Below are positions 10,773-57,350 of a stretch of DNA of 64,000 nucleotides, one piece after another. Position 1 is the stretch's first letter. The number at the start of each line of letters is the position of its first letter. The DNA is taken from assembly GCF_002003265.1 (NCBI RefSeq), contig NZ_CP019687.1, forward strand, positions 1,178,001 through 1,242,000. Reading direction: 5' to 3'. The notes below the pieces were generated by a model. It was not told the origin of the DNA. It was given only the letters and a program-made list of their open reading frames with translations, and did not search any database. The stretch is from Paenibacillus larvae subsp. larvae. Lineage in GTDB: Bacteria; Bacillota; Bacilli; Paenibacillales; NBRC-103111. Both the position numbers and the translations under genes were made by a program.

Positions 10773-11067
10773 CGGAAGGCGCATCCGGCAAGCCTATGAC
10801 AACGATAATCCCGGCATAGAGGAAAGATAACTTCAAAAGGAGTTTTGTTGGTTGTTGATCTTCAAATCATCTGCCAGATCACCGGGTTTTGAAAAGTTTA
10901 TTCATGGAACTAAAAACAGCAGAGGAAGCGCAGGTTCAGTTTCCTCTATGTGACAAAGACCAGTACCCCAACCCTGGTCTTCTTAGAATTTCAAAAGAAA
11001 GTCAAATTGCCCTTGACCCTGACCTTAGGGGAGCCCCTACGCTATAAAAGGAAAGGAGGTAAGAATA
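10773..11067 (+). promoter_or_regulatory. MerR-type promoter region with tandem hairpins
   Basis: TTGACC at 11013-11018 is followed, 19 bases on, by TACGCT (11038-11043); the spacer CTGACCTTAGGGGAGCCCC is a partial dyad. A long 19-bp spacer holding a dyad is the hallmark of promoters controlled by MerR-family activators, here probably by the downstream regulator itself. Two perfect stem-loops lie upstream: AGAGGAA/TTCCTCT (10921-10947) and AAGACCAG/CTGGTCTT (10956-10981); neither has a T tract. Confidence 0.55.
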
Positions 11068-11811
11068 CTGCTCTACACGGTAAAAGAGGTCGCAGCCTTA
11101 TCACAAGTAACTGTAAAGACTCTACATCATTATCATAAGATAGAGCTTTTGCTTCCATACGAGATCAGTGAAGCGGGATACCGCTTGTATGGTGTAAAAG
11201 AACTGGAGCGTTTGCAGCAGATTTTATTTTACAGGGAGCTTGATTTTCCATTGGAGAAGATTAAACAGCTTCTTGAAGGCGAATCGCGGTTGGGTATTTT
11301 GTCCGACCAGAAGGACCTTCTCTTAGCCCGAAAACAGAGACTGGATCGCCTGATACAAACATTGGACGAATCAATAGAATCTGTCGTGAAAGGAGAAGTT
11401 ATGGATCAATCAAGCATGTTCAAAGGGTTTGAAAGCGAACAAAAATGGAAAAATGCCTTAGCCGAGCACAAAGAATATTTGAAAGAGACTTATGGTTTGG
11501 ATATTCTTGAAGACAGGCCAATAGATGTTAAAGATATGAACGAAAAGGCTTCCCGGGCGGATCGTTTTATGGAGGAAATGGCCAAAGCTCTCAAAGCCGG
11601 AATGAAATTTGACGACGAAACCGTTAGGGGCTTGATCAGGGAACATATTGATTTTCTGAATCAGAATGTTCATGCCACAAGCGCTGAAGATTTTGCTTTA
11701 CAAGCCCGGTTTTTCCTGGATGATGACTTTCATCGCAATATAATGGAGTCAAGGCAGACAGGTCTGGCATATTATCTTTTTACCGCTGCGGAATCTTATG
11801 CGGTAAAGTGA
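11068..11811 (+). CDS. MerR-family regulator with TipAS effector domain
   Basis: A transcriptional activator: an N-terminal MerR helix-turn-helix (VKEVAALSQVTVKTLHHYHK), a dimerisation coiled coil around residues 70-110, and a C-terminal TipAS domain (about 130-247) that in relatives binds thiopeptide-like or other antibiotics. The start is probably CTG at 11068, preceded at 8 bases by AAAGGAGG; starting at the downstream TTG 11149 would cut the DNA-binding helices. It is followed immediately by a terminator that an insertion sequence has split. No regulated drug-resistance gene is adjacent, so autoregulation is the visible target. Confidence 0.85.
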   Translation: MLYTVKEVAALSQVTVKTLHHYHKIELLLPYEISEAGYRLYGVKELERLQQILFYRELDFPLEKIKQLLEGESRLGILSDQKDLLLARKQRLDRLIQTLDESIESVVKGEVMDQSSMFKGFESEQKWKNALAEHKEYLKETYGLDILEDRPIDVKDMNEKASRADRFMEEMAKALKAGMKFDDETVRGLIREHIDFLNQNVHATSAEDFALQARFFLDDDFHRNIMESRQTGLAYYLFTAAESYAVK

Positions 11812-11815
11812 GAAA

Positions 11816-11833
11816 AAAAGGCATCCTAAACAA
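11816..11833 (+). terminator. Left half of the merR terminator, split by an insertion sequence
   Basis: AAAAGGCATCCTA (11816-11828) is the exact complement of TAGGATGCCTTTT at 13511-13523. Removing the insertion and one CAA copy rebuilds a 13-bp perfect stem with the 7-base loop AACAAAA, just after the regulator's stop codon. Confidence 0.85.
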
Positions 11834-11901
11834 TGATATGCTCCCCTCATAGTAGACAGGTGAAATAATAAAAACCTGCTACTATGAAGGGAGCATTTCT
11901 T

Positions 11902-12579
11902 ATGTCTAAAGTCCAGTACAACGCGAAGGAGAAATTCGCCATGATCGAAGAAATCGAAAGTGGTGAGCTTGGTCTTATGGGCGTGGCGTATAAGTATGGG
12001 ATATCGAAATCAACCCTGGTGAAATGGCGACGCCGATATGACGTCTATGGTTTGGAAGGACTAGAAGTTCGAACAAAGAACCGCAGCTATTCTGCAGAAC
12101 TTAAGCTTCAGGCGGTGTTGGATTACCTTAAGGGGGAATTATCCCAATGCGACATCATTCATAAATACAAGATTGCGAGCAGAACACAGCTATCGAACTA
12201 GGTGAAGAAGTATAATAGTCATAGCAGCTTAAAGACCTATCAAGGGGGAGCAAAGGCTATGACGAAGGGACGTAAGACAACCTGGCAGGAACGGTTGGAG
12301 ATTGTTCAATATTGTCTGACACATAACCAGGACTATAGGAAGACAGCGGAGCAGTATCAGGCTTCCTGCCAACAGGTATACCAGTGGGTGAAGAAATATC
12401 AGGACGGTGGGCAAGAAGCGCTACAGGATGGCCGAGGACGTAAGAAGGCAGAAGAAGAATTAACCGACGCCGACCGCCAGAAGCTTGCGATGAAGAAGAT
12501 GGAGGCAGAAATTGAACGTCTACGAGCGGAGAATGCACTCTTAAAAAAGTTAGAGGAACTCGAAAGAAGGGGACGCTAA
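11902..12579 (+). pseudogene. IS3-family transposase OrfA, interrupted by an amber codon
   Basis: DNA-binding subunit of the transposase. Two helix-turn-helix segments are seen (EEIESGELGLMGVAYKYGIS and CLTHNQDYRKTAEQYQASCQ) followed by a leucine-rich coiled coil (MKKMEAEIERLRAENALLKK). The TAG at 12199-12201 interrupts RTQLSN-VKKYNSH where copy 2 has tryptophan at the matching place (RWISKY), so TGG to TAG is likely. ATG 11902 follows GGGAG. Confidence 0.85.
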
Positions 12580-13460
12580 GTCAAGTACGTCAAAAAAATA
12601 TCTATCTCGCCATACAAACGATTCTGCAAGACGGGAAATTCAGCATAAAAACGCTGTGTGAAATTGTGGAGATTCCGCGATCAAGCTATTACAAATGGCT
12701 AAAACGTAAGCCCAGTGTACGTGAACAGGAAAACCGCATGCTCACAGAAGCGATGATGGCGCTCTATGAGAAGGTAGGAGGTATCTACGGGTACCACAGA
12801 TTAACGCTTCACATATGCAGAGAAACACAGCAGCGGATTAACCACAAATGCATCCAGCGCCTCATGAAGCTAAAGAGGCATTCAGTCGGTGATTCGCAGA
12901 AGTCGAAAGAAATATGCATCGTCAACTCCTCAGCACGTGGCTGAGAACCTGTTGAACCGTGAATTCGCTGCGACAAAGCCGAATGAGAAATGGGTAACGG
13001 ATGGTAACGGAATTCAAATATGGTCACGGTCAAAAGGCGTATTTAAGCGCCGTTTTAGACTTCTATGGCAATACGATTGCTGTCTTACGTTTTCGGGCAC
13101 TCCAACAATAATGGCCTCGTGTTTCAAACCGTCAACAAGGCGATACAAGCGGCATCGGGCAGCAGGCCCATGCTGCATAGTGACCGGGGCTTTCAATATA
13201 CCTCGCAAAAATTCAAAAAGATCCTGGAGAAAGGAAACATCATGCAGAGCATGTCTCAAGTTGGCAGATGTATCGATAATGGCCCCATGGAATCCTTCTG
13301 GGGAGCCCTAAAATGTGAGAAGTATTATTTGCATACTTACCATACCTTTGAAGATCTCGAAAGGGACATTGAGGCTTACATTTACTTTTACAATTACGAG
13401 CGATTACAAGCGAAATTAAACGGCCTTAGTCCGATGGAATTCAGGATCAAGGCCGCTTAA
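12560..13460 (+). pseudogene. IS3-family transposase OrfB (DDE integrase), multiple frameshifts
   Basis: Reached by a -1 shift at AAAAAAG (about 12543). Fragments in all three frames match an rve-type integrase in order: IPRSSYYKWLKRKPSVREQE, then RRSRKKYASSTPQHVAENLL, then KWVTD, TEFKYGHGQKAYLSAVLDFY, and finally HSDRGFQYTSQKFKKILEKG with GPMESFWGALKCEKYY. The last piece holds the second Asp and the Glu of the DDE triad. Frame changes near 12880, 12997 and 13095 destroy the gene. Confidence 0.85.
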
Positions 13461-13510
13461 CTAATTTTTATTATTTGTACTGTCTACTTGACAGGGTGCA
13501 GTTCACAAAA

Positions 13511-13523
13511 TAGGATGCCTTTT
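13511..13523 (+). terminator. Right half of the split merR terminator
   Basis: TAGGATGCCTTTT, the complement of 11816-11828, lies six bases beyond the right IS end, after the CAA duplication. Confidence 0.8.
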
Positions 13524-13582
13524 CGCGTCGTTCCGTCCGATCGCACGGCACAGTTGATAGTGGTCAAAGCCTCTAGTTTTTA

Positions 13583-13947
13583 TTTGCAATTCAACTATTC
13601 GCGTAGGATGCGACATAGCCGCGCTATATGGCGGTCGGCTTAATTGATTTCAATCCACGCATCCGCGTAGGATGCGACATTGAAAACCAAAATAACCTTT
13701 CGGAAATTATCCATTTCAATCCACGCATCCGCGTAGGATGCGACGGGAATAGCAATCAATTCGGTTTGTATTTTGATGATGATTTCAATCCACGCATCCG
13801 CGTAGGATGCGACATTTACATCTGCTTCAGTTGCATATTTGTAATTGTTATTTCAATCCACGCATCCGCGTAGGATGCGACAGGAATTGTTTCCTGAGGG
13901 TGTTTCAGATGATGTATTTCAATCCACGCATCCGCGTAGGATGCGAC
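13583..13947 (-). CRISPR. Type I-C CRISPR array 1: six repeats, five spacers
   Basis: The 32-base repeat on the plus strand begins ATTTCAATCCACGCATCC and ends GCGTAGGATGCGAC. The minus strand therefore ends in ATTGAAAT, the usual transcript orientation of I-C repeats. Perfect repeats start at 13647, 13713, 13782, 13850 and 13916; the one ending at 13614 is degenerate (about 24/32), marking the leader-distal end. Spacers are 32-37 bases. No cas gene is intact in the window, so any interference would need proteins encoded elsewhere. Confidence 0.97.
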
Positions 13948-14124
13948 AGCGAAATTTGAACAAAACAATCAAAATTGAACATTTTTTTGATTAAATCATT
14001 CAAACAATGATTTTTTGATTCAAATTTATTACAATCAAATATACCTATATCCAGATATTTGTATATTTTTGGTGAAATAATGGTGCGAATCTCCCGGGAT
14101 TTTCATGTGCACTATACATTCGCA
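13948..14124 (-). promoter_or_regulatory. CRISPR leader of array 1
   Basis: An AT-rich stretch adjoins the newest repeat, then come GTGCGAAT and ATTCGCAC (14082-14089 and 14117-14124) as an 8-bp inverted repeat around CCCGGGA and GTGCAC motifs, as I recall for I-C leaders. Position and orientation match transcription leftward into the array. Confidence 0.7.
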
Positions 14125-56022: not shown

Positions 56023-56039
56023 AGGCCCACATGTTAAGT
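56023..56039. terminator. Left half of a convergent terminator split by IS copy 2
   Basis: AGGCCCACA (56023-56031) pairs with TGTGGGCTT at 57342-57350 except for one mismatch. Removing the IS and one AGT copy gives a 9-bp stem with a 13-base loop between the LacI gene and the converging GNAT gene. Confidence 0.75.
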
Positions 56040-56111
56040 TGATATGCTCCCCTCATAGTAGACAGTAGAAAAAACAAAAACATCTACTCTACAATGATGG
56101 GAGTTTTTACA

Positions 56112-56792
56112 ATGTCCAAAAGGAGTCCAACTTCTTTAGAGGTAAAGCTACGTGTCGTAAAGCGATGTCTTCAGAATGAGACAAACCCAAGTTATGAGGC
56201 GAAACAGCTGGGAATAGACAAAAACACGGTAACAGATTGGGTAAGGAAGTATAAAGCAGATGGTCTTGACGGATTAAAGGAATCCAGAGGATGTAAAGCT
56301 TACTCAGAGGATCTGCAGCTGGCTGCAATCAGAGATGTATTATCCGGTAGTCATTCTATACGAGAGGCGACAAAGAAGTATCATATTTCTAGTAAAAGTG
56401 TTTTGACGAGATGGATCTCCAAGTATACTAATGGGGTAGAAATAAAATCTACTCGTAAAGTATCTCGTATGAACAAAGGACGTAAAACCACTTTCGAAGA
56501 ACGCATTGAAATTGCACAGTATACGATCGCAAACGATCTGGATTATCAGAAATCCATGGAGAAATATGATGTTTCTTATTCACAGGTGTACGCATGGGTT
56601 CGTAAATATAAATCTGGCGGTGAGGAAGCCCTCAAGGACAATCGCGGTCGTAACAAGCCTGCGGAAGAGTTGGATGATCATGAACGACTCAAGCTTCGGA
56701 TCAAAGAATTAGAAGCACGGAACGAGTATTTAGAAATGGAGAACGCTCTGGCAAAAAAGTTGGCAGAGATCCGGCGACGACATACACGCTAA
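56112..56792 (+). CDS. IS3-family transposase OrfA
   Basis: An intact 226-residue DNA-binding subunit with two HTH repeats (CLQNETNPSYEAKQLGIDKN and YTIANDLDYQKSMEKYDVSY) and a C-terminal leucine-zipper-like helix (ERLKLRIKELEARNEYLEME). GGGAG precedes ATG 56112. At GCA AAA AAG near 56752 ribosomes can slip -1 to fuse OrfA to OrfB, as in other IS3 elements. Confidence 0.88.
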   Translation: MSKRSPTSLEVKLRVVKRCLQNETNPSYEAKQLGIDKNTVTDWVRKYKADGLDGLKESRGCKAYSEDLQLAAIRDVLSGSHSIREATKKYHISSKSVLTRWISKYTNGVEIKSTRKVSRMNKGRKTTFEERIEIAQYTIANDLDYQKSMEKYDVSYSQVYAWVRKYKSGGEEALKDNRGRNKPAEELDDHERLKLRIKELEARNEYLEMENALAKKLAEIRRRHTR

Positions 56793-56795
56793 CGT

Positions 56796-57265
56796 TAGTC
56801 CGACATGCAGACTGGTATCAAGCTATCCAAGAACTGCACGCTGAGAAAGGCTATGCCGTCACGAAGCTGTGCAAGCTAGCCGGAGTCGCTCGATCTGCCT
56901 ATTATAAATGGCTAAAATGGAAACCATCTATCAGGGAACTTGAAATCCTTTCATTGGCCAAGGAAGTGAAACTTCGCTATGACAAGAGAAAGGGTGTACT
57001 TGGTTATCGTCAAATCCGCACACAATTGAACCGGAAACTCAAAAAGAGTTACAACAAAAAACGTTATTATCGAATCATGCGCGCTCTTGAATTAAAAGCG
57101 GTGATTCGCAGGAAACGACCGAATTACGTGAAATCCTCTGCAATACATGTGGCTGAAAATGTGATGAACCGCGAGTTTCACGCGGACTCTCCCAATTTAA
57201 AGTGGTGCACAGATGTCACAGAATTGAAGTATGGGAATGGTCGTAAAACCCTCAGTTCAATTTAA
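56796..57265 (+). pseudogene. IS3-family transposase OrfB, C-terminally truncated
   Basis: In the -1 frame: LVRHADWYQAIQELHAEKGY, RSAYYKWLKWKPSIREL, HTH_21 region KKRYYRIMRALELKAVIRRK, then the start of the integrase core NLKWCTDVTELKYGNGRKT. It stops right after the first catalytic Asp region; the rest of the DDE domain is deleted. The copy cannot transpose by itself. Confidence 0.85.
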
Positions 57266-57341
57266 CAGAACTGAGGGAAACAAACTAACTGTTTTTGTTT
57301 TTTTACACTGTCTACTTGACAGGGGGCACTTCAAGTTTCTC

Positions 57342-57350
57342 TGTGGGCTT
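57342..57350. terminator. Right half of the split LacI/GNAT terminator
   Basis: TGTGGGCTT, complement (one mismatch) of 56023-56031, nine bases beyond the IS end. Confidence 0.7.

Follow-up and report, generated by a model that had tools for sequence, protein, structure and literature searches.

IS3-family insertion sequences of an IS150-related clade very probably integrate at the centre of intrinsic-terminator hairpins, reading their target as a structure. Their insertion points lie in hairpins and are centred on them, the arms of these hairpins covary from site to site with no common motif, the elements sit there independently of orientation, empty sites carry the hairpin, and hairpin insertion is absent from another IS3 group. 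We propose that integration occurs at the hairpin centre, the stagger being 3 bp in most cases, and that the target would be a GC-rich dyad of about 7-15 bp with a short loop and A/T tracts outside, of nearly any sequence and in either orientation. If this is true, a widespread IS clade has as its target a structural class found at most gene ends, with landing sites that are near-harmless and nearly unlimited; it would be a tractable system in which to study hairpin recognition by a DDE transposase, and annotators could foresee where insertions fall and detect terminators that have been split.

The split hairpin downstream of merR

In the window (the whole stretch of 64,000 nucleotides that was analysed), the gene for a MerR-type regulator with a TipAS domain (11149..11811, plus strand; domain matches of 35.6 bits to TipAS and 32.4 bits to MerR-DNA-bind) has a stop codon ending at 11811, and the left arm of a split hairpin, AAAAGGCATCCTA (11816..11828, plus strand), recognised by pairing across the element, starts at 11816. 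It is followed by the left part of the loop, AA (11829-11830), the left copy of a CAA target duplication inside the loop (11831..11833), and a decayed IS3-family element of 1672 bp and end-type F1 (11834..13505, plus strand; ends TGATATGCTCCC...GGGTGCAGTTCA). Beyond the element come the right copy of CAA (13506..13508), the loop bases AA, and the right arm TAGGATGCCTTTT (13511..13523, plus strand), which pairs with the left one. Rejoined without the element and one CAA, the flanks form a perfect 13-bp stem with a 7-nt loop (-20.3 kcal/mol, z -6.35), a fold equalled by 0 of 200 shuffles, and A- and T-tracts flank it. The site has a strict stem score of 15.5; a score of 14 was reached by 9 of 11,700 random flank points. 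The first-pass annotation had described the same element boundaries, the CAA duplication and a 13-bp stem with a 7-base loop right after the MerR/TipAS stop, all of which we confirm in the sequence.

The merR ORF as listed begins at TTG, and its true start probably lies further upstream. After a Shine-Dalgarno-like AAGGAGG (window 11050-11073) the merR frame reads GTA AGA ATA CTG CTC, with no ATG, GTG or TTG in the expected place; the gene may have a rare start codon or be damaged. On the other side, a CRISPR-like array (window 13572-13948; repeat ATTTCAATCCACGCATCCGCGTAGGATGCGAC, spacing of about 66 bp) begins some 50-70 nt past the split hairpin. The merR hairpin stem GCATCC/GGATGC is identical to a stem within this repeat, and the merR terminator could be derived from a degenerate CRISPR repeat, or the match could be due to chance.

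The inserted copy is a pseudo-element. Between its terminal inverted repeats, TGATATGCTCCCCTCATAGTAGACAG on the left (11834..11859, plus strand) and CTGTCTACTTGACAGGGTGCAGTTCA on the right (13480..13505, plus strand), there are remnants of orfA (11884..12579, plus strand; two HTH segments and a coiled coil, interrupted by a TAG at 12199-12201) and of orfB (12583..13460, plus strand; a DDE/rve integrase core with several stops and frameshifts, including 3 TGA, 1 TAG and 2 TAA in the orfB frame). These pieces match IS3 transposases (HTH, rve), the last orfB piece matching rve models. An intact relative (L010/L036) has an orfA of 240 codons in frame 0 and an overlapping orfB of 319 codons in a different frame, and against the IS3 transposase model NF033516 (cut-off 160) OrfB scores 271.5 bits in a family-C relative and 267.3 bits in family B. 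The clade thus belongs to the IS3 family by its transposase model, its overlapping orfA (HTH) and orfB (DDE core), its ends and its target-site duplications (TSDs).

The window's genome (4.29 Mb, one contig) holds 55 matches to the element, in three groups of copies. Its family includes Paenibacillus genomes and its family-C transposase shares 98.7% identity with plasmid-borne copies from Paenibacillus larvae, so that the DNA probably comes from P. larvae or a close relative. A second F1 copy within the window is a deletion derivative of 1294 bp (56040..57333, plus strand; TSD AGT at 56037-56039 and 57334-57336), with a LacI-type gene on one side and a convergent gene on the other. It splits a terminator-like hairpin of 7 bp with a 13-nt loop, the arms being GCCCACA (56025..56031, plus strand) and TGTGGGC (57342..57348, plus strand); RNAfold shows no stem of at least 6 bp enclosing this site.

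Hairpins at insertion points across the collection

We assembled 117 elements with distinct flanks: 17 from the window's genome, 53 from 80 named loci found via transposase alignment (an element was called in 53 of the 80) and 47 from other genomes of the family and phylum (Bacillota). Ends were called from terminal motifs, TSD and transposase strand, flank folding never being used; since known end motifs are required, elements with unrecognised ends are missed. Copies in the window's genome with a single recognisable end (for example L034, L042, L043, L045 and L050-L055) were left uncounted, and two plasmid copies with mis-called ends, L277 (P. larvae) and L271 (Listeria), were dropped. By end-type the collection comprises 85 F1 (the window's type), 7 F1r (Ruminococcus and relatives), 9 F2 and 16 F3 elements. 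The ends are IS3-like, TG...CA, with the exception of one F3 group that starts with TA, and the TSD is exactly 3 bp in 89 cases, 4 bp in 5 and 9 bp in 1, with none of at least 3 bp in 22.

The first-pass annotation had suggested, from the merR site, that a hairpin is recognised rather than a sequence, and had proposed gathering the other copies and examining their rejoined flanks. With element and TSD deleted, 82 of the 117 sites passed a strict test (a Watson-Crick stem scoring at least 9, one mismatch being allowed, whose axis lies at most 4 nt from the insertion); of 11,700 points drawn at random from these flanks, 117 passed. The majority of copies do sit in hairpins. The offset of the stem axis peaks at 0 and is near zero in frequency beyond 10 nt. 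Passing sites occur in every end-type (F1 64/85, F1r 2/7, F2 6/9, F3 10/16) and in each of several genomes (13/17 in that of the window, 4/8 in G057, 7/8 in G094, 4/6 in G055 (F3) and 3/5 in G033), and are rarer where there is no TSD (10/22) than where there is one. RNAfold on its own places the site in a hairpin loop closed by at least 6 bp in 73/117 cases against 551/4680 random points (in G057, by RNAfold alone, just 2/8), and at least 8 bp enclose the site with a minimum free energy of -12 kcal/mol or lower in 104/117 against 1096/3510. The 35 sites that fail the strict test include, by eye, some offset or bulged hairpins and others with none (e.g. L111, L128, L179).

Terminators lie between genes, where an insertion can be tolerated, which would suit an element that inserts at random and survives where selection spares harmless copies. 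Such a process predicts intergenic DNA generally, not centring within a few nucleotides of a dyad axis, and a different IS3 group with copies in genomes of the collection (L157/L308 type; six in G057 and two in the window's genome) has 0 of 8 in hairpins, with a best score of 6.0. On the centring and on this control we reject random insertion with selection, which we hold to be highly improbable.

At two sites the hairpin also occurs without the element. At a site in G094 after a sigma-54-like gene (named by eye), the IS lies in the hairpin loop with a TSD of AAT, and the hairpin is whole in five of six sister genomes, both sides aligning in four of the six. At a second site an intact hairpin is found in one of seven sister loci (L345), where the right flank is 86.7% identical, the region having diverged in the others. 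Natural empty loci at two sites other than merR therefore carry the terminator hairpin, as the first reading of the merR site would have it.

These loci also bear on whether the arms are part of a longer element and the hairpin arrived with the IS. Identical arms do recur among F2 copies in the window's genome; by eye, however, they belong to a different IS gene, of which they form the 3' end. In most copies the arms vary between sites, a direct repeat of at least 3 bp lies between arm and element in 95 of 117, and the empty sites have the arms without the element. Given the variable arms, the TSDs and the empty sites, we reject this explanation as almost inconceivable.

Structure, sequence and terminator character of the target

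No shared target motif was found, every column around the insertion holding at most 0.44 bit, and each of the nine innermost stem positions includes all four Watson-Crick pair types. When flanks were re-paired between sites, hairpins fell from 67 of 89 observed to a mean of 3.5 (maximum 7) over 100 rounds, in support of the earlier suggestion that structure is what is recognised. A sequence motif as target is rejected by this low information content and because arms are not interchangeable between sites. The flanks are nonetheless mirror images in composition, A-rich from -14 to -23, GC-rich inside and T-rich from +14 to +22.

A transposase dimer that reads a double-stranded dyad, as two half-sites with A/T tracts outside and no extrusion, would account for sites that are centred, mirror-symmetric and orientation-neutral, as a symmetric dimer predicts, and the A- and T-tracts could bend the DNA at a fixed distance. 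We consider it rather unlikely, because there is no common half-site, four pair types being found at every stem position, and because re-paired flanks keep their tracts and composition but lose the signal; a half-site reader would not need matched arms. Since half-site sequence is not shared, an extruded or single-stranded hairpin is the more likely target. In the structural reading that we prefer, the recognised form would be an extruded cruciform or a single-stranded hairpin, and the transposase itself, not a host factor, would be what recognises it.

Judged by their sequence, the targets appear to be intrinsic terminators: GC-rich hairpins that come after a gene and are themselves followed by a T-run. 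Of 51 strong-hairpin targets, 37 have a terminator tail (six or more T/A in 8 positions), against 94 of 223 background hairpins of similar strength (p 9e-5), an enrichment which indicates that terminators are preferred. At 84 of the 103 sites with enough flank, the expected strand has an ORF end no more than 150 nt away. Both figures also fit a coupling to transcription termination, in which the transposase would be recruited by an RNA polymerase that has paused, by a termination factor or by the hairpin of the nascent RNA. Against it, if only in part, stands the neutrality of orientation: the stronger T-tract is on the right of the IS in 43 cases, on the left in 45 and tied in 29, and relative to gene ends the 103 sites divide into 27 with a gene end upstream only, 26 with one downstream only (on the other strand), 31 with both and 19 with neither. 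Four F2 elements of the window's genome (L038, L056, L057, L151) moreover all occupy one recurring hairpin at the 3' terminus of a related IS transposase gene, reading KLTPVEYRRQLAA-stop by eye, of which one uninterrupted copy is at C1:1563026-1563058; a terminator is thus not strictly required. We regard recruitment by termination as distinctly unlikely. Replication strand shows no bias either (31 leading against 28 lagging in seven genomes, the contig start being assumed to be the origin), and on this split, with the origin so assumed, an orientation bias towards lagging-strand single-stranded DNA is rejected.

The elements carry a hairpin of their own. At the merR site a stem-loop occupies the left end (11835..11898, plus strand; -37.3 kcal/mol in 80 nt), and the Shine-Dalgarno AAGGGAG (11887-11893), ahead of the ATG at 11902, lies in its 3' arm. 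All four end-types have such a long left-end hairpin with the orfA Shine-Dalgarno in its 3' arm, the first 80 nt folding at -33.2, -28.3, -32.7 and -36.5 kcal/mol in F1, F1r, F2 and F3 against -11.9, -9.2, -14.1 and -15.5 for shuffles, while right ends fold at a mean of -19.4 and an internal segment at -12.8 kcal/mol; the control IS3 group has no long left-end hairpin (-11.0 kcal/mol). A T-rich run (at least 5 of 9) past the last GC pair follows in 57 of 117 elements. The stem-loop may hide the transposase Shine-Dalgarno from read-through transcripts, blocking translation, and together with its T-run, where present, it may stand in for the split terminator; by masking and replacement in combination, the cost of landing to the host would be small. 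In the 1.27-kb F2 and F3 types orfA is shorter, at about 105-116 codons, and these elements too land in hairpins, so a requirement for the second HTH of orfA is rejected. Two F1 left ends form a near-perfect palindrome of 71 bp in the window's genome (C1:1503114-1503184; L051/L268); it is MITE-like (-37.9 kcal/mol) and sits within a weak hairpin of 7 bp, with no 3-bp TSD.

Clade limits and related systems

In a tree of 96 transposases, a 100/100 branch separates the control group from F1, F2, F3, ISSau2, ISEnfa5 and IS150/ISKpn8. Pass and fail labels are unclustered on it (25 changes against 27.6 when shuffled), so that no non-targeting Firmicute branch is visible and the targeting trait is undatable on this tree. 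The first-pass notion of a terminator-targeting IS3 relative is supported for a whole clade and not for a single copy. In the control-group copies L308-L316 of G057, the flanking repeats resemble AATAGCGNATCTNAGTTCC; such repeats are perhaps a family that this group targets or carries.

Among Firmicute plasmid relatives, a looser measure gives a score of at least 9 in 5 of 7 (including ISSau2 at 21.5) against 33 of 780 in the null. ISSau2 (Staphylococcus) and ISEnfa5 (Enterococcus) lie inside the clade on the transposase tree. ISSau2, from one site only, is in an 18-bp hairpin with TSD TTA and has a left-end stem-loop of -26.9 kcal/mol; we found no description in the open-access literature that joins ISSau2 with terminator insertion. 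The ISEnfa5 copies (L269, L270) adjoin resistance genes.

The nearest classical group is IS150/ISKpn8 of the Enterobacteriaceae (about 36% identity), which falls among the clade's branches at 91/88, under the star threshold. Unlike the clade, IS150 is without a long left-end hairpin (-9.1 kcal/mol). Plasmid copies of IS150 and ISKpn8 with both ends score as hairpins in 0 of 6 cases, a set from which L362 (end truncated by IS26) and L275 were left out. The single IS150 copy in Nico21(DE3) is inside gltL, where by eye there are AAAGCCC/GGGCTTT arms at unequal distances, and IS150 is therefore not a clean negative. A Hok-family gene is annotated downstream at all eight fetched IS150/ISKpn8 plasmid loci (L275, L276, L362-L367), and the K-12 copy of IS150 (L373) adjoins hokA, a recurrent hok-associated target.

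Terminator inverted repeats are used by other mobile elements. IS1630 (IS30 family) duplicates the entire inverted repeat, and group IIC introns, which are retroelements, insert next to the stem of the terminator. Unlike IS1630, the elements studied here show a 9-bp duplication at just one of the 117 sites. The IS1447 group is likewise of the IS3 family, enriched in Firmicutes and with 3-4 bp duplications; its ends start with TA, its expression is via transcriptional slippage, and the available text of PMC6211511 does not report a hairpin target. In the open-access literature, as distinct from subscription papers and ISfinder notes, we did not find an IS3 group that targets terminator loops in general, a behaviour that may already be known to curators.

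IS3 elements that enter REP hairpins are already in print (available text of PMC1525189), and the parallel with IS1397 and ISKpn1 drawn in the first-pass annotation is apt as to behaviour. In that text IS1397, ISKpn1 and ISPsy8, also of the IS3 family, insert at the hairpin symmetry axis, ISPsy8 with a 3-bp duplication, and target choice by IS1397 and ISKpn1 is reported to lie with the transposase. Insertion at the axis is present here too; the use of one repeated palindrome family (REP) is absent, save that F2 copies within the window's genome share a single hairpin, and each target has its own sequence with only the fold and the A/T tracts in common. A bolder reading, which we hold to be rather unlikely, goes further: one structure-specific contact might read any terminator hairpin as well as the element's own left-end hairpin, the element being in effect a mobile terminator that takes the place of the terminator split by its insertion, with the fold alone defining the target and REP targeting a specialised case. 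REP-loop IS3 elements were thus already known, and what is apparently new is general terminator-loop targeting by a clade.
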